Assembly: GCA_027068975.1 (NCBI GenBank)
Contig: JALXFN010000049.1
Span: 1 to 63,955, forward strand
Source: Campylobacteraceae bacterium
Lineage (GTDB): Bacteria > Campylobacterota > Campylobacteria > Campylobacterales > Sulfurovaceae
Length of the DNA stretch: 63,955 bases
Reading direction: 5' to 3'
The position numbers and the translations under genes were made by a program. Below are positions 45,778 to 58,414 of the stretch, piece by piece. How positions within the stretch are numbered: position 1 is the first letter of the stretch; each line of letters starts with the position of its first letter. The notes under the pieces were generated by a model that worked only from the letters and a program-made list of their open reading frames with translations, was not told the DNA's origin and made no database searches.

Positions 45778-48018
45778 ATGAATAAAAAACAAAGCATTGG
45801 GCTCTGTTCCCTACTCTTGACATCTGCTATTGCAAATGCGAATGTAAGTGGTATAGTATATCATGACTTACCTTTAAATGTGGCTAATTTAAACACATTT
45901 GGTACAAAAGACAGCAACGAAAAAGGAGTAGCTGGTATTACAGTAAAAGCTTATTCTGATTCAGGTACTACTACAACTACAACCGACGCAAATGGTTCAT
46001 GGTCTTTAGCCTCTACTGGTAAAGTAAAAGTAGAGTTTACAAATATTCCCTCTTATTTAAAAGAGAGTGCTGGTCAATCATCAGTACAGTTTATAGATGA
46101 TGGTACAACTACAGTAAATTTGGCACTTTATAACCCTGCAGAATATGCAGACTCTACTACAAACAGCGTTGCTATGACACTTCAACCTAACTCAGCGGTT
46201 GAAGGTGTAGTTTCAATTAAAACACTTGATAAAGATGACATTCCTAGTGGGGAAAACGACTCTCTTCCAGCAACAGCTAATGATACGACTCTAACACAAA
46301 CTGGTTCTATATGGGGTCTTGCTTATGATAGCTCGAATAAGACATTTTATGCTTCAGCTGTAGTTAGACGACATACTGCTATGGGAGATGAAGGTCCAGG
46401 TGCTATTTATCAAATAAAAGATGGAGTAGCTACTCTTTTTACAAAAGTTGAAAACGTAGGAACCATTCCATCAAATACAGAAAGAGCAATAACAGAAAAG
46501 CAAAATCACGACTCTCTTTTTAATGAAGTAGGACGTGTAGGACTAGGAGATATAGATATAAGTGCAGACGGTACAAAACTTTATACTATTAATTTAAATA
46601 CAAATCAACTGGTCGAAATAGATATTGCAACAAAAGCACAAAAAACTTATGATATTGGAAATCCATTTGGTGATTGTACAGATGTAAAATCATGGGGTAT
46701 CGGTCAAAACAGTGGTAAAGTTTATGTTGGTTCTGTTTGTACCACAGATACTACAAAGGGTGCATACATTTCAGAATTTAATGGCGCTTTATTTACCCCA
46801 TTCCATCAAATACCACTTGACATGGATGGTGAAACATCACTTTATAGTGCTGTTTTTGGTCATACAAATGGTAACAAAAGATGGAGAACTTGGATTACAA
46901 ATCCAACAGATTTATTTGATGGTTTTGGAACAAGAGTTAGTTTAGCAGCACCAATTCTTTCAGATATTGTTTTTGATGAAAACAGAGGAATGATTTTAGG
47001 CTTTACAGACCGTACAGCAATGCAAGCAGGGCTTCAAAATTTTAGTCCAGTTACTACAGATAATAAACCATACAAATATGATGCTGCTGGAGATATCTAC
47101 AAAGTATGTAAAACAGATGCAGGATATGTTAATGAAGGTGAAAATGGATGTGATAGAGAAGCAGATGAATTTTTTAATGAAGATGAGTGGAGCAATAATA
47201 TTGGAGAACATAAAGAGATAGCTTTAGGTGGATTAGCATATCTACCAGGTTCAAACAGTGTTTTAACCACTGCGTTTGACCCTGTGAATAGAGGTACCTA
47301 TGACTCCTCTGGAATTATATGGATGAATACAGAAGAGGGAAAAAGAACAGCAGCACAAAGAATGGTTGGAGGACATGCAGACCCAAGCTATCATGGTAAA
47401 GCAGGAGGAATAGGTGATATTGAAATTTTAACAGCTGCTGCTCCAACAGAAATAGGAAACAGAGTTTGGTTTGATGAAAATAAAAACTGTGTTCAAGATG
47501 CTAATGAATCAGGTATTGGTGGAGTAGAAGTTAGTTTATATGCCTCTACAGATTGTACAGGTATAGCTGAAGGAACAACAACTACAGATGAAAAGGGTAG
47601 ATATCTATTCCCTGTTGAGGCTGGTAAAGATTACAGTGTATGTATTAACAATATAGCTGGTCAATCTGTACTCAATGATAAAAAATTAACTTGTAATACA
47701 AAGGGTACATCTATCAATAACAGTGATGCTATAGTTGATGGTAGTGGTGCTAAAATAGCTGTTGCCCCATTAACAACGGGAGCGAATGATCACTCATTTG
47801 ACTTTGGATTTGTTAATAAAGATGCTAACACTCCTACCCCTGTTGTAGTACCAGAACAAAACAATACTGTAAACCATGGAGATGGTTCTTGTGATTGTCA
47901 TAGTTATACAGAAGACTCATCCCCTGCATTAAATGTATGGAGTACAATGCTACTTATAACGTTAACATCTTTTATGGCTTTTCTTTTCAGAAAAGAACTT
48001 GAACAACCAAGTAAATAG
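45778..48018 (+). CDS. Exported SdrD-B-like protein with beta-propeller and C-terminal sorting tail
   Basis: 746 aa. A signal peptide (ending IANAN) precedes an SdrD B-like domain (GIVYHDLPLNVANLN, KGVAGITVKAYSDSG, TTTTDANGSW). A central ~350-residue propeller-like region follows (LGDIDISADGTKLYTINLNT). A second SdrD B-like domain reads GNRVWFDENKNCVQDANESG. The C terminus has SSPALNVWSTMLL, a hydrophobic helix and FRKELEQPSK, a tripartite tail like IPTL-CTERM sorting signals. AAAGGA precedes the ATG. It is probably a surface-attached adhesin or matrix protein. Confidence 0.78.
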   Translation: MNKKQSIGLCSLLLTSAIANANVSGIVYHDLPLNVANLNTFGTKDSNEKGVAGITVKAYSDSGTTTTTTDANGSWSLASTGKVKVEFTNIPSYLKESAGQSSVQFIDDGTTTVNLALYNPAEYADSTTNSVAMTLQPNSAVEGVVSIKTLDKDDIPSGENDSLPATANDTTLTQTGSIWGLAYDSSNKTFYASAVVRRHTAMGDEGPGAIYQIKDGVATLFTKVENVGTIPSNTERAITEKQNHDSLFNEVGRVGLGDIDISADGTKLYTINLNTNQLVEIDIATKAQKTYDIGNPFGDCTDVKSWGIGQNSGKVYVGSVCTTDTTKGAYISEFNGALFTPFHQIPLDMDGETSLYSAVFGHTNGNKRWRTWITNPTDLFDGFGTRVSLAAPILSDIVFDENRGMILGFTDRTAMQAGLQNFSPVTTDNKPYKYDAAGDIYKVCKTDAGYVNEGENGCDREADEFFNEDEWSNNIGEHKEIALGGLAYLPGSNSVLTTAFDPVNRGTYDSSGIIWMNTEEGKRTAAQRMVGGHADPSYHGKAGGIGDIEILTAAAPTEIGNRVWFDENKNCVQDANESGIGGVEVSLYASTDCTGIAEGTTTTDEKGRYLFPVEAGKDYSVCINNIAGQSVLNDKKLTCNTKGTSINNSDAIVDGSGAKIAVAPLTTGANDHSFDFGFVNKDANTPTPVVVPEQNNTVNHGDGSCDCHSYTEDSSPALNVWSTMLLITLTSFMAFLFRKELEQPSK

Positions 48019-48065: not shown

Positions 48066-49538
48066 CTATCTAAACTCTTGCTCAAAACTTCTAAACTTTT
48101 TATCCAACTCTTCAATCTTGTTTTGATTAACCAAACTATCTTTTTCTAACGAGTAAGGATGCCACTCTACTTTGTGGAAAAAACTTTGCCAATAGCAGTA
48201 TGTTTCATAATCATAAGCACTCTCCCAAGCAATAAGATTAGACACTTCAAAAGTCTCCACGGTATAATCATACTCATTTTTTAAAATTTCAATAAGCTCT
48301 TTATCTTCTAATCTAGTTGATATTTTATTAAATATTTCTACATTACGACTGTAAACCGTACCAAATGGCTGACCATTAGAGGTAAAAACAATAATATCCG
48401 TAGCATCATTATTAATCAGTGACAAATACTTATCTTTATTATAGACAATACTCTTGTCATAAGAGCTAAAAAGAATAGAAGCGTTTTTATCTAAAAAACT
48501 TAATTTTTTATCACTACTTATGGTAGCATTAGGATACTCTTCTTTTAACAACTCTACTAAATTTTCATTTTTAAGATGTTTTTCTGAAAGCAAAAAAACA
48601 TTTTGTTCACTACTTGGCATAGAGTTAAGTACTTGTGTAATCATCGGTTTTCCAGAAATCTCAAGAAAAGGTTTTGCTTGACTGTACTCTTTGTAGCCAA
48701 CTTTTTCAAACTCTATGCTCTCATCAAGTAAAGAAATAACCGTTACACTATTGGCTTTAATAGATAAAGACTCTTTTGGCTTTTTGATTAAGTCAGCAAA
48801 ATAATCAGACCAATAGTTATAATCTTCTACCTCTTCAGGAACTCCCCACTGTAACATATGCTGAATATTATAAATTGAGACTTTTAAATTATCTTTTACC
48901 AATAAGTTATAAACCAATGAGACATAATATTCATCATTATAGGTAATTTTTTTATCAATTAGCTCTTTAAAATACTTCTTTAAAATACTACCTTTTTTAA
49001 AATAGTATGTTCCATTAGAGACATACTTCTCCATAGCAGCATCAATAGGCTCTTTCTCTTTAATCTCATCCATCCACTGCTCTGTATCGGTAGAGAGTGC
49101 ATAGTTTGTACCACTAAACATATGAGGATGAAATTTCTTATAGGAGACAACTGCACCATCGGCATCCCTGTCTCGTGTATGTTTTAAGAAATCTTCATAA
49201 TCCCAATAGATTCCAAAATCACAATAGTTAATAATAATCTCTTCATCATCCTCTATCAAGTCCAATATCTGTAACACTGTATATACCGGTCCTTCTGTAT
49301 GATTAGGAATCTCTATAATATTTGCATTGGGTTGAATTTTTAGCAACTCTTCTCTCATGTTTGTCTCTGCCAAGTGTTTAGCATTACAGATAAAAGTAAA
49401 CTTTGTCTCAGTTGGGAAGATATCACAAGCATGACCTACAATAGTTTTACCATTAATCTTAATTAGTGGTTTTGGTTCTTTGTATCCTGCTCGAACAAAT
49501 CTATTTCCTACTCCAGCCATAGGTATAATAATATGCAT
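48066..49538 (-). CDS. Nucleotidyltransferase with an internally duplicated, degenerate second domain
   Basis: 490 aa. Residues 1-248 are a sugar-phosphate/alcohol-phosphate nucleotidyltransferase: IIPMAGVGNRFVRAGYKEPK (the G-x-G-x-R loop and Lys), FICNAKHLAE, TEGPVYTVLQ, INYCDFGIYWD, SNGTYYFKKG, ending EEVEDYNYWSDYF. Residues ~265-480 repeat the fold: FEKVGYKEYSQAKPFLEISG, VFLLSEKHLKN, FGTVYSRNVEIF and YDYETYCYWQSFF, but the nucleotide loop is replaced by VTVISLLDESIE. So one active and one pseudo-domain are on one chain. It lies 20 bases after the HAD gene and probably activates a novel precursor for the surface glycan. Confidence 0.8.
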   Translation of the reverse strand: MHIIIPMAGVGNRFVRAGYKEPKPLIKINGKTIVGHACDIFPTETKFTFICNAKHLAETNMREELLKIQPNANIIEIPNHTEGPVYTVLQILDLIEDDEEIIINYCDFGIYWDYEDFLKHTRDRDADGAVVSYKKFHPHMFSGTNYALSTDTEQWMDEIKEKEPIDAAMEKYVSNGTYYFKKGSILKKYFKELIDKKITYNDEYYVSLVYNLLVKDNLKVSIYNIQHMLQWGVPEEVEDYNYWSDYFADLIKKPKESLSIKANSVTVISLLDESIEFEKVGYKEYSQAKPFLEISGKPMITQVLNSMPSSEQNVFLLSEKHLKNENLVELLKEEYPNATISSDKKLSFLDKNASILFSSYDKSIVYNKDKYLSLINNDATDIIVFTSNGQPFGTVYSRNVEIFNKISTRLEDKELIEILKNEYDYTVETFEVSNLIAWESAYDYETYCYWQSFFHKVEWHPYSLEKDSLVNQNKIEELDKKFRSFEQEFR

Positions 49539-49558
49539 TTTTTTTCCTTTTTTATAAA

Positions 49559-50233
49559 TTAAATTTTTATCTCATCAAATGAATAAACCTCTGTTACAAT
49601 ATTAGTATTATATAGTTTATTTTCCTTTTTTAAATTAATCCAAATTGCATCTATTCCTAAATTAGAAGCACCGACTATATCTTTGTTAAAGCTATCCCCT
49701 ATCATACAAACTTCATCTGGAATCAAGTTCATTTTTTTTAATGCAACCATAAACATATAAGGGTGCGGTTTTTCTCTACCTGCCTCTTCGCTTGTTACCA
49801 TAAGAAAACTATATTGGTCTAATTTTAACTGTTTAATTTTTCTATGTTGTATATGTGCTGTTAAATCTGTAAGCAAACAAAGTCTATTTTTATATTTTTC
49901 TAAAAACTCATAAATTCCATCAAAAGGTTTCATGGAAACCAAAAAGGTATCCCAATATAAGTTATAAACAGTTAAACTATATCTTAAAGGATTAAGCTCT
50001 AATAGCTCTAGCATCTTTTGAAAATAGAGTAGTCTGTTATGGGATGCAGCTGTATCTCCCAATTCAATTTGAACCAAACTTCTTGCTTTAGAATAGCATA
50101 TAGATATCTCTTCTTCTGATAGAGAAAACTTTTCTTTTAGAAACGTTATAACTCTATTTAAAGCTATTTTATGGCTATTGTCATAATCGTATAATGTATT
50201 GTCAATATCTAGTAATATGCCTTTATACTTCAT
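49559..50233 (-). CDS. HAD-superfamily phosphatase
   Basis: 224 aa. Motif I LLDIDNTLYDYD (nucleophile Asp plus Asp two residues on), a helical cap, motif II CLLTDLTAHI, motif III Lys in REKPHPYMFM and motif IV MIGDSFNKDIVGASNLGIDA are all intact, so it should be an active phosphohydrolase of the HAD-IA type. It lies three bases after the membrane-kinase fusion gene and 20 bases before the nucleotidyltransferase, suggesting that kinase, phosphatase and nucleotidyltransferase act in one activation pathway. Substrate unknown. Confidence 0.85.
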   Translation of the reverse strand: MKYKGILLDIDNTLYDYDNSHKIALNRVITFLKEKFSLSEEEISICYSKARSLVQIELGDTAASHNRLLYFQKMLELLELNPLRYSLTVYNLYWDTFLVSMKPFDGIYEFLEKYKNRLCLLTDLTAHIQHRKIKQLKLDQYSFLMVTSEEAGREKPHPYMFMVALKKMNLIPDEVCMIGDSFNKDIVGASNLGIDAIWINLKKENKLYNTNIVTEVYSFDEIKI

Positions 50234-50236
50234 CCC

Positions 50237-52228
50237 TTATCTATCCTCTTTTAATTTCTCACTGATAAGTAAGACCAGCATAAATTGAACAAAACCGTCA
50301 TAACCATGTTTCCATCTTGCATTTTTATCAATAATTTGGTCAACATTTAAAATAAAATTTTTAGACAACTGTGTATAATTATTTGTTGGTGCTTCTCTTA
50401 ACTCTATATATTGTGTTAATAAATCTTCATTGTAATCCCAAGTATAATTGGCTTTTAAGTTTTCTAAAATATGCTCAATATTAATACTTGCATCAAAAGT
50501 AATTTTTACTCCATGTGCTACTTTTTCTGGTTCACCTAAGCTAAAATCATGTAATGGAAAGTAATGAATAACAACATCTGCAAACTTCTTTTGAGGGTAA
50601 ATATACTTAGTAGTATCTTCAACTCTTGTTGCAATTTGTTCTAAAATCTTCTCTTTACTATAGCCTCTTTTTTTTGTATCACGTAAAATTTTCCAATGCC
50701 GTCTAAGTCTCTCATCTGTATCCATATAAACTTTTATATCTATAATTTTACGGAGTTTAGGAAGGTAAAATGGATGCAGTCCAGAAATAACAATAATCTC
50801 TTTTGGTAACAGTTTTGAAGGGGTCGTAAACTTACCAGTATCATGGTCATATTCACTTCTATAAATGGCTCTATTTTGCTTTAATTCATTTATTCCCTCA
50901 GCCTGTTTATGAATATAGTTTGCCTTTGGGTCTAAATGCGTAAATTTATCCCAATTTTTATCTCCTCTTTCCCATTTATGCTCTCCATCACCCTCTATTT
51001 CCAATAGTTTATCTCTAAAAATCAAAGTCAAGTTTGTAAGAAGCAAACTCTTTCCAACACCACTGTCTCCACCAATTCCTATTGCCAAATTTCTTTTTTG
51101 TCGATATATAGAGTTCATTCCAATACTATAACCATATGCAGATACTGTAATAAGGGTCATTACTTCAAGAAATGTATAGAAAATATTTTTTAAATTTTCA
51201 TTATCAACTTTAAAACCAATAGGCATATCTAAAAATTGTATAACTAAATCTTTTTCTTGATAAAGAAAGATAAAAAAAATCAAATAAAAAATAGTAAACA
51301 GAGAGTAAAAAGCAAGAGATTTTTCTTGATTTTCATGTTTTATAAGATAGATGGACAAATAAGGAACCATAAATACATACAGTTCAGGACGAGGAAAGAT
51401 AAATAGTATACTAACGGTAAACAATAGACCAAAATACAAATAAAGTAACTGGTCATTTACCTGTTTTTGATTAAAAAAGTAATAATAGACCAACAATATA
51501 GAAGACAAAGAAGCCAATACTTTTAGCTCTCCTATAGCAAAAGATGCTCCATTAAATGATTCTTTTAACAATAAAGTAACCATAGTAACAAACTCACCAT
51601 TTAATAGATAAGGTATATTAAGTACAATAAATATAGATAGAGCAATAAATATATATCTAACTGATTCTTTCAGATTTTCTTTGGTATAAATAAAATAAAA
51701 AATAATAGGTAACACAATTATCATATATATCTCTGAAGCCATTGCTAGTCCCATAAATAGAGCTGAATAGTACTGTTCTTTTTTTACGGTTAACATATAG
51801 GCAGTTAACAGTAATAATGATGTAGAGATAATAGTAAGATGAGTATTTATATATGTTATATAAATTATTATGGGGTTAAGAAAATAATAAATATATATTC
51901 TTTTTCTATAATCCACAAATAATTTAAGTAAAATATAGAGGATTATAAAATCAGCAAAAAGCAATGGTAATTTAAAAAATAGATTAATTAAAACTATAGA
52001 ATTAATATTTAAAAAGTTTACCATAGAGGCTAAAAAGGAATATATATATATCAATAATGAATGAAATGGATATATTAAAAATTCATTATTAAAATAAGAC
52101 TCTCCCCTATTGGTAGCTTCTAAAAAAGTCATAAACATATTATTTGTATAACTTGAGCTAAAGAGAGCAAGTAAAGCTATTTTCATTAACAACATAATAC
52201 CAATTTTCATACTAAATACTTTTAACAT
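50237..52228 (-). CDS. Polytopic membrane protein fused to a uridine-kinase-like P-loop domain
   Basis: 663 aa. Residues 1-375 have roughly 10-11 transmembrane helices and resemble GT-C glycosyltransferases in layout (an early loop NRGESYFNNEFLIYPFHSLL with a Tyr-Pro before helix 2), although the catalytic acidic residues are not certain. Residues ~380-663 are a phosphoribulokinase/uridine-kinase-like domain: Walker A GIGGDSGVGKSLLL (near residue 385), LEIEGDGEHKWERGDKNWDK, IIVISGLHPFYLPKLRKIID (Walker B region), a lid-like RLRRHWKILRDTKKRGYSKE and KFADVVIHYFPLHDF. I know of no characterised protein with this fusion. It may phosphorylate a precursor at the membrane for the adjacent HAD and nucleotidyltransferase. 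Confidence 0.8.
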   Translation of the reverse strand: MLKVFSMKIGIMLLMKIALLALFSSSYTNNMFMTFLEATNRGESYFNNEFLIYPFHSLLIYIYSFLASMVNFLNINSIVLINLFFKLPLLFADFIILYILLKLFVDYRKRIYIYYFLNPIIIYITYINTHLTIISTSLLLLTAYMLTVKKEQYYSALFMGLAMASEIYMIIVLPIIFYFIYTKENLKESVRYIFIALSIFIVLNIPYLLNGEFVTMVTLLLKESFNGASFAIGELKVLASLSSILLVYYYFFNQKQVNDQLLYLYFGLLFTVSILFIFPRPELYVFMVPYLSIYLIKHENQEKSLAFYSLFTIFYLIFFIFLYQEKDLVIQFLDMPIGFKVDNENLKNIFYTFLEVMTLITVSAYGYSIGMNSIYRQKRNLAIGIGGDSGVGKSLLLTNLTLIFRDKLLEIEGDGEHKWERGDKNWDKFTHLDPKANYIHKQAEGINELKQNRAIYRSEYDHDTGKFTTPSKLLPKEIIVISGLHPFYLPKLRKIIDIKVYMDTDERLRRHWKILRDTKKRGYSKEKILEQIATRVEDTTKYIYPQKKFADVVIHYFPLHDFSLGEPEKVAHGVKITFDASINIEHILENLKANYTWDYNEDLLTQYIELREAPTNNYTQLSKNFILNVDQIIDKNARWKHGYDGFVQFMLVLLISEKLKEDR

Positions 52229-52267
52229 ATTACTATACTATTCCTTCTATAGATTCTTATTTATTTT

Positions 52268-53533
52268 TTAGTTGTTTAAGTTATAAAATTTATTTTCTTG
52301 CTTTCTTTTTTTATTCTCTATTATACTTTCCTTTTTATTCTCTACAATTGTATAGTGAAGCATTAGAGTTATCCAAAAAAGTGGATTTGAAAAATATATT
52401 TCAGAGGTTAATAAAAGTAATATAAGTAATACTATAGAAATGCCCATATAATCACCGTTCTTCCAATGATATCTACTATACATTGAAAATGACTTATACA
52501 TAAAAAAAAGCATTGTTATAAAAAAGGGTAAACCAAATCGTACAATTACATCGGTACTACCAACTGTTCTAATATCAACTACTTTTCCTGTACTATATAT
52601 CGTTGTAAATCTAGTAAGTTCATTGGGACCACGACCTATCAGCTCATGACCTTGAAAATCACGCCAGTCTTTAAGAATACTAGCGAATCTACCTGAATCA
52701 GCCTCTTCTAAATTTGGTAATTTTGCTAATTCACGAGCTTCTTCAAACTGTTTTTCAATTTTTTTACCTAAAAAGTCTAAATTTGTATAAGCGATATATC
52801 CTATAGATATTAAGGAAAAGAACAATATGATTTTTAGTAAAATATTTTTTACTTCTCGATTAAATATAAAAGCCAAAAACAAAAGAAGTACAATATAAGC
52901 TGTTGATGATTGTGTTGTTAATATAGCTATAATTAAAACAATATTTGTTCTATTGTACAATTCTGCTTTTTTCAAATAACTAATTATTAATGATAGTAGT
53001 AAAAAACCTCCAAATGCTCCCATTTCCCAAAATGCTCCTGAATTTCTCATCTCATATCCAGGTACGATAGTATATAAGCCCATAATACTGTATCTCGATT
53101 GCATATAGTCTCCTTCTTGTACATACAAAAGAAGCTTCTCAATTAAAATATCACTAAAGCCAGGTATCAATACAATTGGTATATAAAAAATAAAACTTAT
53201 TAAAGTAAGATAATACATAACTTTAACAAATTTATCAGGAAAATCCACAACACTTTTTAGAATAAAATAAGCTATTAAAATCCTAACAAAAACCCCTGCA
53301 AAAGTCAGAACTGGAAAAAAGTTGAATTTAAATGTTTGTAAAATCAGTATAACCATTAGTCCTACAAGAAAATAAACAAAACTAACATCAAATTTACTTT
53401 TTCTATAAAAAAACAATCCTGTTGCCAATATAAAAACTATAAACAGGCTTATTTTATTTTGAAAAACAATATTCCCTGATATAAAAATAAGTGCTAGAAC
53501 CATGAAGTAGTCTATGATTGTATTGATACGCAT
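52268..53533 (-). CDS. Wzy/O-antigen ligase-like membrane protein
   Basis: The start at 53533 (AAAGGAGAGAG upstream) is preferred over 53623, which would overlap the flippase gene. The product is 421 aa with about 11-12 transmembrane helices and a long periplasmic loop containing ADSGRFASILKDWRDFQGHE and GRGPNELTRF, the Arg and Gly-Arg-Gly-x-Asn-type signature of O-antigen polymerases and ligases. It probably polymerises or transfers the fucose-containing repeat unit made by this cluster. The C-terminal tail is very Lys/Asn-rich. Confidence 0.82.
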   Translation of the reverse strand: MRINTIIDYFMVLALIFISGNIVFQNKISLFIVFILATGLFFYRKSKFDVSFVYFLVGLMVILILQTFKFNFFPVLTFAGVFVRILIAYFILKSVVDFPDKFVKVMYYLTLISFIFYIPIVLIPGFSDILIEKLLLYVQEGDYMQSRYSIMGLYTIVPGYEMRNSGAFWEMGAFGGFLLLSLIISYLKKAELYNRTNIVLIIAILTTQSSTAYIVLLLFLAFIFNREVKNILLKIILFFSLISIGYIAYTNLDFLGKKIEKQFEEARELAKLPNLEEADSGRFASILKDWRDFQGHELIGRGPNELTRFTTIYSTGKVVDIRTVGSTDVIVRFGLPFFITMLFFMYKSFSMYSRYHWKNGDYMGISIVLLILLLLTSEIYFSNPLFWITLMLHYTIVENKKESIIENKKRKQENKFYNLNN

Positions 53534-53567
53534 TATAACTCTCTCCTTTAATTTTAACTCAATATGA

Positions 53568-54809
53568 CTATTGTGTTTTATACAATTGCTTTTGCTTAAT
53601 ATAGTAAACCCTAAAACCAACACTAGCTAAAGTATACACTACCAATGAAAATGATACGATATAAATATCCTTTGTTACATACGCTACTAATGTTATAAAT
53701 AAAACATAGATTATTGATGCATATATTAAACTGATATTAGCCTCTTTTATATACCCAAATGCAGCCAATAAAGGATATCCTAGTAAAGCATTAATAACAC
53801 CAAATAGAGTACCTGAAAACATTATTAAAAATATGTACCCCATTATCTCATTATTCATATTAAAAACTAATAATAAAATTTCTTTATAAAAATATATTAT
53901 AGGAATTAACAAAGCAATTGATGCTAAAACAACAAATAAAAAAGTTTTTTTGAAAAAAGTGATATTTTTTGTTCTACTCATATAAGGGTAAATGGTCTGT
54001 GCAACAATACCTCCTAAACTCATAAATGCATAGTAAAGTTTTTCAATCATAGAGTAATATCCTACAATAACATTTCCGAAAGACATACCAATAATAGTAA
54101 TAGCATAAAATCTACTACCATCATTGGCTACACGAGATAAAAAGAAAGCATAACTCTCTTTTAAATGCAAAATAAAATCTTCTCTATTGGGCATAACTAT
54201 CTTAATTTTATATAAACGAAATACCAACCATAGAGAATACAACCCTCCAATAACAGTACCAAGCGTATTTAAGAGAGGTACATATATATAATCATCACTC
54301 TCTTTTACAAGAACAAAAATCAAGATAGTAAATAAAACCCTAGAGACAAAATTAATATAGGTTATATATTTCATTCTCTCCATCCCCTGAAAAAACCATG
54401 TGGGAAAAAGTAAATTACCAAATACAAAACCAAATGTTACATAATAGAGCGTGATATGTTCACTTAATTTATCTACAAAAATCAGTAATAAAGTGAGAAC
54501 GATATAAGAAAAGATAAATAATAAGATTTTAATTAACATAACTGTTGAAAATATTTTTGATACTTTTTCTAAATTATCTCTATTTATAGAAATCTCTCTT
54601 GTTGCAGAGAGTTCAAATCCAAAACTTACCAAAATATTAAAATACATTATAATAGAGAGAGAAAAATTTACCAGTCCAAAGTTTTCAGCACCAAGTATCC
54701 GTACTAAATACGGTAGGGTAAATAGAGGTAAAAACATATTTAACGCTTGCAACACGGAGAGTGAAAAGAAATTTGATATTAAGGCTTTTTTATCCTCCAA
54801 TGCTGCCAT
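53568..54809 (-). CDS. Wzx-type polysaccharide flippase
   Basis: A 413-aa, 12-14-helix membrane protein of the MOP/RfbX family that moves undecaprenyl-linked repeat units across the inner membrane. It opens with the family pattern NFFSLSVLQALNMFLPLFTL, PYLVRILGAENFGLVNFSLS and YFNILVSFGFELSATREIS. A second conserved region is FVFGNLLFPTWFFQGMERMK. It lies eight bases after fcl and upstream of the polymerase gene, all on the minus strand. Confidence 0.9.
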   Translation of the reverse strand: MAALEDKKALISNFFSLSVLQALNMFLPLFTLPYLVRILGAENFGLVNFSLSIIMYFNILVSFGFELSATREISINRDNLEKVSKIFSTVMLIKILLFIFSYIVLTLLLIFVDKLSEHITLYYVTFGFVFGNLLFPTWFFQGMERMKYITYINFVSRVLFTILIFVLVKESDDYIYVPLLNTLGTVIGGLYSLWLVFRLYKIKIVMPNREDFILHLKESYAFFLSRVANDGSRFYAITIIGMSFGNVIVGYYSMIEKLYYAFMSLGGIVAQTIYPYMSRTKNITFFKKTFLFVVLASIALLIPIIYFYKEILLLVFNMNNEIMGYIFLIMFSGTLFGVINALLGYPLLAAFGYIKEANISLIYASIIYVLFITLVAYVTKDIYIVSFSLVVYTLASVGFRVYYIKQKQLYKTQ

Positions 54810-54817
54810 CTATTCTC

Positions 54818-55870
54818 TTACCTTTGCCCGATGTACCATGCATACATCTTCTTTATACCCTCTTCAAGCTCAACCTTATGCTTCCAACCCAAAGCATGAA
54901 GCTTAGATGGGTCTGTCAACTTAATCATAGTACCATCTGGTTTTTCAGTATTGAAATAGAATTCACCTTTAAATCCAATAATATCTTGAATAATATATGC
55001 CAACTCTTTAATAGAAATATCAATACCTGTACCAATATTGATATGCGTATTTCGTATCTCTTTATCATCTGGACTATAAGTATCTTTAAAGTCTCTATTT
55101 TCAAGTAAATAGACACAAGCATCTGCCATATCTTCACTGTATAAAAACTCTCTTCTGGGATTACCTGTTCCCCAAATTTCAACTTTTTTAGCATCTACAC
55201 CAAAACCAGTTAAATACTCTTTGGCTTCTTCTATAGTGTTTAGACCCAAATCAGCAATAACTTCCTTATCTTTACCCTCATTAAGCAGTTTTGCTAAATG
55301 AATTTTACGAATAAGTGCAGGTAAAACATGAGATTTTTCTAAATCGAAGTTGTCATTAGGTCCATAAAGATTCGTAGGCATTACAGAAATAAAGTTGGTT
55401 CCATACTGAAGATTATAAGATTCACACATTTTAATACCTGCTATTTTAGCTATGGCATAAGGCTCATTTGTATACTCCAATGGAGAAGTTAAAAGAGAAT
55501 CCTCAGGCATAGGTTGTGGTGCATTTTTAGGATAGATACAAGTAGAACCAAGAAAAAGTAATTTTTCAACACCAGACTTATAAGCCTGATGAATTACATT
55601 GTTCTGAATTTGAAGGTTCTCATAAATAAAATCTGCTCGATAGACATTATTTGCAACAATACCACCTACCTTAGCAGCAGCCAAAATGACATATTCTGGT
55701 TTTTCTATTTGAAAAAATTCTTCTACAGCATTTGCATCTAAAAGGTTTAATTCTCTATGCGTTCTATAAACAAGATTGGTATAACCTTTTGCTTCTAAGT
55801 TTTTAACTATAGCAGAACCAACTAAACCTCTGTGTCCTGCTATATATATTTTACTCCTCTTGTCCATCAT
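54818..55870 (-). CDS. fcl: GDP-L-fucose synthase
   Basis: A 350-aa SDR epimerase-reductase that converts GDP-4-keto-6-deoxymannose to GDP-L-fucose with NADPH. Features are IYIAGHRGLVGSAIVKNLEA, AAKVGGIVANNVYRADFIYE, FLGSTCIYPKNAPQPM, catalytic YTNEPYAIAKIAG (Tyr-x3-Lys), PTNLYGPNDNFD, SHVLPALIRKIH and WGTGNPRREFLYSEDMADAC. About 30 residues longer than E. coli Fcl because of an insertion around residues 195-230 (NEGKDKEVIADLGLNTIEEA). It is followed closely by the flippase gene and preceded by gmd. Confidence 0.93.
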   Translation of the reverse strand: MMDKRSKIYIAGHRGLVGSAIVKNLEAKGYTNLVYRTHRELNLLDANAVEEFFQIEKPEYVILAAAKVGGIVANNVYRADFIYENLQIQNNVIHQAYKSGVEKLLFLGSTCIYPKNAPQPMPEDSLLTSPLEYTNEPYAIAKIAGIKMCESYNLQYGTNFISVMPTNLYGPNDNFDLEKSHVLPALIRKIHLAKLLNEGKDKEVIADLGLNTIEEAKEYLTGFGVDAKKVEIWGTGNPRREFLYSEDMADACVYLLENRDFKDTYSPDDKEIRNTHINIGTGIDISIKELAYIIQDIIGFKGEFYFNTEKPDGTMIKLTDPSKLHALGWKHKVELEEGIKKMYAWYIGQR

Positions 55871-55876
55871 ATAATC

Positions 55877-56998
55877 CTATTCAAAATAATTCATAATATC
55901 ATAACCACCATCTTTTAGATATTGGTCTTTTGTCATAAGCTTCAAATCACTCTCCATCATATCGTTTACCAATGATTCAAGTTTATACTCACGCTTCCAA
56001 CCAAGTTTAGTTTCAGCTTTTGTAGGGTCACCAAGAAGCAGGTCAACCTCTGTTGGTCTAAAGTATTTAGGGTCAACAGCAACAACTTCTCTTCCAATTT
56101 CTAGTTGATAATCAGGATTAGAACAAGATACTACATAGGCTTTCTCATCAACACCTTCCCCTTTAAATTCTAACTCAATACCAGCATAAGCAAATGACAT
56201 TCTGACAAAATCTCTTACTGTAGTAGTTTGACCTGTAGCAATAACCCAATCTTCTGGCTCATCAGCTTGAAGAATTAACCACATCATTTTGACATAATCT
56301 TTTGCGTGTCCCCAGTCTCTTTTTGCATCTAAGTTTCCAAGGTAAAGTTTATCTTGAAGTCCAAGTGCAATTTTACTTGCAGCTCTTGTGATTTTTCTCG
56401 TTACAAAAGTCTCCCCTCTCACTGGTGATTCATGGTTAAACAAAATACCATTACAAGCGAACATGTCATAAGCTTCTCGGTAGTTTACGGTAATCCAATA
56501 AGCATACATTTTAGCTACAGCATAAGGACTTCTTGGATAAAAAGGTGTTGTCTCACTCTGTGGTGTCTCTTGCACTTTTCCGTATAGTTCAGAGGTACTT
56601 GCTTGATAGATTCTAGTTTTTTTTGTAAGACCAAGTAGTTTAACAGCCTCTAAAATTCTTAGTGTTCCTGTACCATCAGCATTTGCTACATACTCTGGAG
56701 TCTCAAAAGAGACAGCAACATGACTCATAGCAGCTAAGTTATAAATCTCATCTGGTTGAGTCTCTTGAATAATTCGAGTAAGGTTCATTGAGTCTGTCAT
56801 CTCACCATAGTGTAAGATAAGGTTTCTATTTTCTACATGTGGGTCTTGGTATAAGTGGTCAATTCTATCAGTATTAAAAAGAGACGATCTTCTTTTTAAA
56901 CCATGTACTATATAGCCTTTTTTAAGTAAAAATTCTGCTAAATAAGATCCATCTTGTCCTGTAATTCCTGTAATTAATGCTACTTTTTGTTTTGCCAT
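55877..56998 (-). CDS. gmd: GDP-mannose 4,6-dehydratase
   Basis: The start at 56998 (GGAGAAAACA upstream) gives 373 aa. It makes GDP-4-keto-6-deoxymannose, the substrate of Fcl. It has the Rossmann motif [39 protein letters not shown], the active-site [37 protein letters not shown] (Tyr-x3-Lys), [20 protein letters not shown] and [20 protein letters not shown]. It lies six bases before fcl and 48 after manC: a complete GDP-mannose to GDP-fucose branch. Confidence 0.95.
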
Positions 56999-57046
56999 TG
57001 TTTTCTCCATATTATTTTTGTTTTTATTGTTTTTTATACTATTAAT

Positions 57047-58414
57047 TTATCTTTGAAAATCATCTTCGATTCTAACGATATCATCTTCACCTGTATACTC
57101 TCCCACTTGTGCTTCAATAAGTACAACTGGTATTTTACCTTCATTTTCTAATCTATGTATTTCCCCCATTTTAATATATGTTGACTCATTTGGTCGTATA
57201 AGTTTCTTCTCTTCACCAACTGTTACAGTTGCTGTACCACTTACTACTATCCAATGCTCATTTCGATGAAAATGTTTTTGCAAAGATAGTCTTTTACCCT
57301 GATTAACAATTATTCTTTTAATCTTATATTGGTTAGTAGAGAGTAAAACCTCATATGTTCCCCATGGTCTATGTGCTAAAGTATGTACTTTCGTTAAATC
57401 AGAATTCTTCTTTTTTAACGCTGCTACAACATTTTTAACCTTTTGCGTAGACTCTTTTTTTGAAATCAATAAAGCATCATCTGTATCGATAATAACCAAA
57501 TCTTCTATATCTATAGTCGCTACTTGTTTGTTAGAAACAATAAGATTATTTGAAGAATCAATAGCTATTGCTTTAGAATCTAAAGGTGTCATCTCTTCAA
57601 TCTCATTAGATAGAGCATTAAAATCACCTAAATCACTCCACATTATATCTGATGGAATCACTTTTACCCTCTCTGATTTTTCCATTACAGCATAATCAAT
57701 ACTATCTTCTGGAATATTTAGCATATCATCTGTTTTAATTTTAAACTGCTTATCTGAAATATTTAACTTTTTAGAAAATGCTACTTCTGATGTTTTATAT
57801 ATTTCTGGTGAGTATTTTTTTAGCTCCTCTAAGAAAACACCTGCTTTAAACATAAACATTCCACTATTCCAATAGTAATTCCCTTGTTCAATATAAGATT
57901 TTGCTGTCTCTAAATCAGGTTTCTCTTTAAAACTTTTAACATCTAAACCCTCTGCTTCAATATATCCAAATCCTATCTCAGGGTAAGAGGGAGTAATTCC
58001 AAAAGTAACTAAGTTATTATTTTTTACTTCTACCTTAGCTTGTAAAATTACTTTTTTATATGCTTCTTCATCTTTAATTAAATGGTCAGAAGGTGTTATT
58101 AACACAATTTCTTCTGCATCTAATGCCATACAAGCTAAAGCAATAGCTGGAGCTGTATTTCTTCCTACTGGCTCCAATAAATATAAAGAGCTATTATCTT
58201 TCTTTAAAACCTCTTCTTCTTGCTCTAGTGCTAAAAAATACTGTTCACTATTTGAAACAATAAAATTTGAATCACAAAGAAGAGAGTTTCGCTCTAAAGT
58301 TAGCTGAAACAACGATTTATCATTAAATAACTTTATAAATTGTTTTGGATATAAAGTCCTACTTAAGGGCCAAAGTCTCGTTCCTGAACCACCACATAAA
58401 ATAATATTTATCAT
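57047..58414 (-). CDS. manC: Mannose-1-phosphate guanylyltransferase / mannose-6-phosphate isomerase
   Basis: A bifunctional 455-aa enzyme. The N-terminal nucleotidyltransferase has IILCGGSGTRLWPLSRTLYP, YLLEPVGRNTAPAIALACMA, LITPSDHLIKDEEAY, SFKEKPDLETAKSY and YWNSGMFMFKAGVFL. The C-terminal type II isomerase cupin has HRPWGTYEVLL, KRIIVNQGKRLSLQKHFHRN and EHWIVVSGTATVTVGEEKKL. It supplies GDP-mannose to gmd. No phosphomannomutase gene is in this cluster. It is the most upstream gene of the fucose unit; the 135-base A/T-rich gap before it probably holds the promoter. Confidence 0.95.
   Translation of the reverse strand: MINIILCGGSGTRLWPLSRTLYPKQFIKLFNDKSLFQLTLERNSLLCDSNFIVSNSEQYFLALEQEEEVLKKDNSSLYLLEPVGRNTAPAIALACMALDAEEIVLITPSDHLIKDEEAYKKVILQAKVEVKNNNLVTFGITPSYPEIGFGYIEAEGLDVKSFKEKPDLETAKSYIEQGNYYWNSGMFMFKAGVFLEELKKYSPEIYKTSEVAFSKKLNISDKQFKIKTDDMLNIPEDSIDYAVMEKSERVKVIPSDIMWSDLGDFNALSNEIEEMTPLDSKAIAIDSSNNLIVSNKQVATIDIEDLVIIDTDDALLISKKESTQKVKNVVAALKKKNSDLTKVHTLAHRPWGTYEVLLSTNQYKIKRIIVNQGKRLSLQKHFHRNEHWIVVSGTATVTVGEEKKLIRPNESTYIKMGEIHRLENEGKIPVVLIEAQVGEYTGEDDIVRIEDDFQR

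Follow-up and report, generated by a model that had tools for sequence, protein, structure and literature searches.

What can be the role of a P-loop kinase that is built, within one polypeptide chain, onto a multi-helix membrane domain and is encoded among genes for a surface polysaccharide? This question is raised by a gene of a Campylobacteraceae bacterium located in a stretch of DNA of 63,955 nucleotides, the whole of which is called the window throughout. The original prediction for this gene, made from the letters, stressed that enzymes of this kinase family are not normally membrane bound, and the ordinary relatives of the kinase half are soluble indeed.

The fusion gene and its surroundings

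Positions 52228..50237 (minus strand) form a single open reading frame with an ATG start, 663 codons and zero internal stops, which confirms that a membrane domain and a P-loop kinase are joined in one chain, as had been proposed (Table 1). The proposal also held for the parts: about 375 hydrophobic residues in 10–11 helices were claimed, and a crude hydropathy analysis of residues 1 to ~379 gives 11 hydrophobic segments on the mean of ten sequences and 10 on the window alone, with a probable further segment at residues 283–299. The Walker A motif and the complete kinase-like domain were likewise found as described.

Table 1. Features of the window in and around the fusion gene.
Feature	Position	Strand	Basis
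Fusion gene, GT-C-like membrane half + PRK-type kinase, 663 aa	50237..52228	minus	ORF list, Pfam, NCBIfam, PDB search, alignment
GT-C-like membrane half, residues 1-379	51092..52228	minus	Profile, residue changes, omega 0.202
Walker A GGDSGVGKS, residues 386-394	51047..51073	minus	ORF translation and kinase alignments
PRK-type kinase half, residues 380-663, Pfam core 383-561	50240..51091	minus	Pfam, NCBIfam, tree, omega 0.043
HAD phosphatase	49559..50233	minus	Pfam HAD_2 E 8e-21; NF053830 E 1.8e-45
Nucleotidyltransferase domain 1 (D1), residues 1-250, signature intact	48789..49538	minus	Pfam NTP_transf_3 E 1.6e-9; omega 0.040
Nucleotidyltransferase domain 2 (D2), residues 251-490, shortened, without the signature of relatives	48069..48788	minus	Alignment; omega 0.267
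Wzy-like membrane protein	52268..53623	minus	Pfam Wzy_C E 0.0072, below cut-off
Wzx-like flippase	53568..54809	minus	Pfam Polysacc_synt E 3.4e-48
fcl-, gmd-, manC-like genes (GDP-fucose supply)	54818..58414	minus	ORFs, named by eye

The frame was checked against sequencing error in an independent record, L015, which has the gene order of the window, encodes a protein with 91% identity and keeps the identical 663-codon frame. Ten uninterrupted fusions, besides one broken copy, were obtained from three phyla, and the ten could be aligned, so the two halves are not always separate in homologs. The merging of two genes by a sequencing or assembly error is a negligible possibility, given that L015 and eight more uninterrupted homologs share this frame and that omega across the whole gene is 0.125 (window against L015); we take the fusion as real with practical certainty.

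The eleven fusion loci are the window, L015, L016 (a Lachnospiraceae record), L046 (the same gene as L002), L047 (the interrupted copy), L095, L096, L097 and three plasmid-borne ones from E. coli (L037), Hirschia baltica (L038) and Azospirillum brasilense (L039). The named records alone cover Campylobacterota, Bacillota and Pseudomonadota. Few genomes carry such a fusion: 5 of 398 in the window's order (one of the five being interrupted), 2 of 398 in the phylum of L016, and two of 5426 for E. coli, on a plasmid each time; the other genomes listed in the window's genus (G393, G912 and G918) gave no fusion match. A long homolog consisting of the membrane half alone was not found; the only separate membrane matches are a piece of the interrupted copy of G380 and a 75-residue match with E 3.8e-4, the two 398-genome surveys having reported only matches with E ≤ 1e-20. 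A search of the open-licence literature gave no description of a membrane-kinase fusion, and the combination of a PRK-type kinase with a GT-C half did not come up in it.

Two of these loci deserve a separate remark. The fusion, GDPD-like, GT2 and second GT-C-like genes of G380 (L047:1841-12069) are interrupted, as if the set were decaying or switched off. The E. coli plasmid, of the IncR type, carries the whole gene set (L037:6022-14984) with an IS26 transposase gene downstream, and an identical copy of the set is present in 2 of the 5426 genomes.

The cluster around the fusion is a surface-polysaccharide cluster. The fusion gene lies 39 bases downstream of the Wzy-like gene, the HAD gene starts 3 bases after the fusion gene, and the gene of the two-domain nucleotidyltransferase begins 20 bases past the HAD gene, with the Wzx-like flippase and the fcl-, gmd- and manC-like genes all located upstream of the fusion. 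The best match of the HAD protein among 46 families is the RuBP 5-phosphatase family NF053830, at 155.4 bits and below the cut-off of 330. No cytosolic glycosyltransferase is apparent in the eight cluster genes at 48066–58414 (five scanned with Pfam, three judged by eye), and therefore the enzymes for repeat-unit assembly must lie elsewhere. Facing the cluster from the opposite strand, 45778–48018 (+) encodes a protein of 746 residues that is repeat-rich and, by eye, probably surface-anchored.

The recurrent gene set and the membrane half

The partners of the kinase were surveyed by a profile search of 42 loci, comprising the 11 fusion loci, three loci of a HAD:kinase fusion, 20 viral-contig loci, seven loci of Calvin-type PRKs and L105, the locus that holds the aldolase of the window's genome. 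Presence in the seed loci is partly by construction, because the profiles were built from those loci; read in this way, the fusion loci have a nucleotidyltransferase in all 11, a HAD in 10 (absent in L016), a class II aldolase in 9 (absent in the window and L015), and GT2, GtrA and GDPD-like genes in 8 each (absent in the window, in L015 and in L096, the contig of which stops within the nucleotidyltransferase). The informative part of the table lies in its absences, in the viral rows and in the Calvin rows. The HAD:kinase loci, which belong to the window's order and are presumably Campylobacter-like, show aldolase, nucleotidyltransferase and GDPD-like genes in all three, and GT2 and GtrA in none. 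Aldolase is present in 19 of the 20 viral loci, many of them near-identical, and nucleotidyltransferase in 11, with HAD, GDPD, GT2 and GtrA in none. The seven Calvin-type loci gave none of the partner families in the profile search. GT2 and GtrA thus accompany the GT-C-fused kinase in 8 of 11 loci, and they are missing from all 23 loci, bacterial or viral, in which the kinase has no membrane half.

Some details of the loci should be considered when reading these counts. The D2 profile also matches D1 (e.g., in L024, L030-L034, L036, L096 and the window), which means that the D2 column is not a clean count, and a GDPD-like gene in L017, L019 and L023 was left out of the counts, having a BLAST E of 1e-4 and failing the profile search. 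The two nucleotidyltransferase domains, one chain elsewhere, are separate adjacent genes in L095:7496-9090. The next gene after the viral aldolase-fused kinases is a single-domain nucleotidyltransferase, and in other viral loci (L017:7335-8783, also L025 and L028) the kinase is preceded by an N-terminal domain of ~210 residues, phrog_13607, of unknown function.

Besides the GT-C half, the kinase lineage is fused to HAD in the Campylobacterales loci L045, L048 and L049, and to the class II aldolase in viral contigs such as L024:1749-3095, L030:7986-9398, L031:7902-9404 and L032:7935-9404. Three different fusions of one kinase lineage argue for one pathway, and we think it likely that the kinase, HAD, aldolase and D1 act in it together. 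Close to the L016 fusion, a membrane protein is encoded that scores 138 bits, under the cut-off of 150, with the NCBIfam model 'AZOBR_p60025 family cell surface glycopolymer formation protein'. The gene set suggests a route by which a sugar is activated for use in a surface glycan.

The original prediction called the membrane domain GT-C-like, and this stands for the family, the window sequence alone matching no GT-C family. A profile of ten membrane halves retrieves GPI mannosyltransferase 1 from the PDB (E 2.2e-6, two sequences) with no other match up to E 10, and Pfam ALG3 (3.3e-5) and GT87 (2.9e-4) are matched by two of the ten members each. The GT-C reading of the window thus rests on its relatives, since its own half matches no such family. 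AlphaFold2 models made for the GT-C fold from three-sequence alignments reached pLDDT values of 38 and 40. The suggested conserved acidic pair in the first loop was looked for and not found: no loop-1 acid is common to all ten sequences, and the best-conserved position is N or D. From the profile matches, GT-C ancestry of the membrane half seems highly likely.

The window, by contrast with its relatives, has changed much of what they conserve. Deviations were counted in the columns of the membrane half that are invariant in seven other intact sequences: the window has 8 deviations in 21 such columns and L002, L096 and L097 have none, while the count is 2 of 23 for L016 (window 10) and 1 of 22 for L095 (window 9). 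The corresponding numbers for the kinase half are 0 of 41 for L002 (window 3), 1 of 42 for L096 (window 3), 1 of 42 for L097 (window 4), 3 of 44 for L095 (window 5) and 6 of 47 for L016 (window 5). The excess of change is confined to the membrane half, because the kinase half of L016 has diverged as far as that of the window. By these counts the window is a derived member of the fusion family. All 8 of the other sequences have D132 (in HGQLD), K166, W283 and W286; the window and L015 have lost each of the four, the window having T, E, L and F, respectively, and for this reason a working GT-C enzyme is doubtful there. D2 is shortened and without signature in both records, and judged from the alignment it is degenerate in the window lineage. 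Moreover, searches of the window's genome, an assembly of 146 contigs that is 96% complete, with GT2, GtrA and GDPD queries found nothing at E 1e-3. The aldolase was found in this genome on contig C48 (186-1277, 63% identity), unlinked to the window cluster.

Selection was estimated by the Nei-Gojobori method for one pair, the window against L015. The kinase half and D1, with omega values of 0.043 and 0.040, are under strong purifying selection, similar to fcl (0.043), gmd (0.048) and manC (0.055), whereas D2 (0.267), the HAD (0.227) and the membrane half (0.202) have higher values, the other controls being wzx (0.103) and wzy (0.193). The membrane half is still under selection, because its omega is close to that of wzy.

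These data bear on two readings of the membrane half in the window. It might still act as a GT-C glycosyltransferase, with another donor or acceptor than before and in concert with sugar activation by the kinase, which would agree with wzy-like purifying selection and with the retention of D93 and the other residues that are invariant in all ten sequences. We consider this possible but unlikely, as the four signature residues are changed in the window and L015, and GT2 and GtrA were not found in its genome. For the same reasons, the missing GT2/GtrA and the altered GT-C half, we lean towards a membrane half that serves the window chiefly as an anchor for the kinase.

The kinase half

Pfam PRK (PF00485) covers residues 383–561 with E 3.9e-35 and 121.9 bits against a cut-off of 22, while NCBIfam PRK07429, a phosphoribulokinase subfamily, covers residues 377–599 with E 1.6e-55, at 188.5 bits and below its cut-off of 236. 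The closest solved relatives are phosphoribulokinases (PDB 6hzk, 6kev and 5b3f, E about 1e-35), and the kinase half aligns residue for residue with the soluble phosphoribulokinases over the whole catalytic core. In MhPRK, excerpts of PMC5241800 report Arg59, Tyr98, His100, His55, Lys151 and Arg154 as residues for Ru5P/ATP binding. By alignment and spacing, their equivalents are R421, Y460, H462, H417, K513 and R516, kept in the fusion rows. All 11 fusion kinases have Ser, Ala or Cys in place of the Glu in the EGLHP motif of PRK. The substrate of the kinase may be Ru5P or something closely similar, with even chances in our opinion. As a side observation, two kinases of the Calvin-type clade (L100 and L101) have Arg where the motif Glu before GL is usual.

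It had been suggested that the substrate could be a sugar, either lipid-linked or newly imported, that is phosphorylated on the inner side of the membrane. The physical joining to a membrane protein is in line with this; nevertheless, the idea is not supported, and what speaks against it are the Ru5P-binding residues of soluble PRK that are kept, the regular partners, which are soluble sugar-phosphate enzymes, and the membrane-free fusions to HAD and aldolase. In addition, the kinase lineage occurs without a membrane half in 23 of the 34 partner-bearing loci, and we judge such a substrate improbable.

A tree of 32 kinases separates the remaining possibilities. The window and the other Campylobacterales fusions group with the Bacillota fusions (97/93), the Calvin-type PRKs, seven in all, make up a clade of their own (96/94), and the four uridine kinases stand apart at 100/100. 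The tree does not resolve how the proteobacterial fusions, the HAD-fused kinases and the viral ones branch at depth. A Calvin-cycle phosphoribulokinase that has turned membrane bound would explain why the closest solved relatives are phosphoribulokinases, yet it is very improbable when the Calvin-type enzymes have a clade of their own, their seven loci have no partner family in common with the window locus and the gene is located in a polysaccharide cluster. A membrane-fused uridine or nucleoside kinase would share the superfamily, the E. coli plasmid copy is labelled 'uridine kinase' in public records and the NCBIfam uridine kinase model gives E 1.9e-21; with 76.5 bits against a cut-off of 180, motif residues of the PRK type and the separation in the tree, it is extremely improbable. 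The sequence comparisons indicate that the kinase half is very probably phosphoribulokinase-type and not uridine-kinase-type.

Five strong kinase-only matches from the phylum of L016 (G724, G555, G587, G707 and G719) were tried as split-off kinases of the family and rejected for contexts without any partner family. By eye, their neighbours resemble Calvin-cycle genes in most, and their kinases cluster with those of L040 and L041, whose annotated neighbours are Calvin genes.

A proposed route and its known counterparts

We think that the window may encode a membrane-tethered PRK-type kinase of a surface-glycan cluster, running a route of phosphate relocation and NDP activation, a reading about which we are evenly divided. 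At the cytosolic face, the kinase would place a phosphate from ATP on the free primary hydroxyl of a ketose phosphate similar to ribulose-5-phosphate, giving a bisphosphate, and the adjacent HAD would then take off the original phosphate, in effect shifting the phosphate from one end of the sugar to the opposite one. The carbon skeleton might be reshaped by the class II aldolase, encoded on another contig of the window's genome, and D1 would activate the product as a nucleotide-linked building block to be used in the Wzx/Wzy-type glycan encoded alongside. In the relatives, a polyprenyl-phosphate sugar made by the co-encoded GT2 and flipped by GtrA is probably the donor from which the GT-C half transfers the sugar at the outer face. 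In the window lineage, the GT2/GtrA branch appears to be lost, and the main use left for the membrane half is probably to anchor the kinase. The GT2/GtrA association (8/11 against 0/23) is the best evidence on the former role of the membrane half, and it suggests polyprenyl-phosphate-sugar transfer.

Several observations count against this route: the HAD score (155 against 330 bits), the weak match of the aldolases to the Ru1P aldolase model (E 0.004 and 0.013 at best), the loss of the EGLHP Glu and the unlinked aldolase. Moreover, a ketose 1-phosphate is not anomeric, and its NDP activation would therefore yield a phospho-ketose and not a normal glycosyl donor. The bacterial sets add a nucleotidyltransferase to the phosphatase and aldolase known from a degradative pathway of haloarchaea, which argues for biosynthesis. 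On xylulofuranose or another pentulose as a glycan residue, the open-licence literature that was searched, PMC9614988 included, held nothing decisive.

A broader proposal can be made tentatively, at slightly less than even chances: a PRK lineage outside carbon fixation would serve to make surface glycan, its kinase, HAD, class II aldolase and nucleotidyltransferase forming an undescribed route from ketose phosphate to a nucleotide-activated product. This route would be present in distant bacteria and in viruses, with lineage-specific fusions, one branch having been tethered to a GT-C enzyme that has since become inactive. If true, it would be an unexpected way to make surface sugars, for which a pentulose phosphate could be tested as the substrate, and it would illustrate how membrane and soluble steps are joined and later uncoupled. 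Phosphoribulokinase is commonly taken as a Calvin-cycle marker. The public labels of these genes are phosphoribulokinase or uridine kinase, from which readers of the genomes would infer carbon fixation or nucleotide salvage.

Among known systems, the haloarchaeal non-carboxylating pentose bisphosphate pathway, as given in excerpts of PMC9700705, degrades nucleosides: an RuBP phosphatase gives ribulose-1-phosphate, which is then taken by a FucA-type Ru1P aldolase, and another kinase and an isomerase are used. The HAD described here is nearest to its RuBP phosphatase and a class II aldolase is present in both; the differences are the PRK-type kinase and the nucleotidyltransferase in glycan clusters, and a very weak similarity of the aldolase. 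In Campylobacter coli, BN865_07180, a HAD/phosphoribulokinase domain protein, is tabled beside capsular polysaccharide genes (PMC3928612), where no function is put forward for it. Matched by name alone, it is probably the same HAD:kinase fusion as L045, L048 and L049, and unlike the window fusion it has no membrane half.

Compared to phosphoribulokinase (PF00485), the fusion kinase is alike in the catalytic core, Walker A motif and Ru5P residues, and differs by the membrane half, by HAD, aldolase and nucleotidyltransferase partners in place of Calvin genes, by the replaced EGLHP Glu and by its position outside the Calvin-type clade. The GT-C glycosyltransferases (GPI mannosyltransferase 1, ALG3 and GT87) resemble the fusion in the profile of the membrane half and in the co-occurrence of GT2 and GtrA in the relatives, whereas the fusion carries a cytosolic-type kinase, has no common loop-1 acid and, in the window, has lost signature residues. 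In activation of the GDP-heptose type, the kinase HddA, the phosphatase GmhB and the nucleotidyltransferase HddC relocate a phosphate before NDP activation. That system uses an unrelated kinase family and has no counterpart of the aldolase, the GDPD-like protein or the GT-C half, but its logic of kinase, phosphatase and nucleotidyltransferase is like the one considered here.
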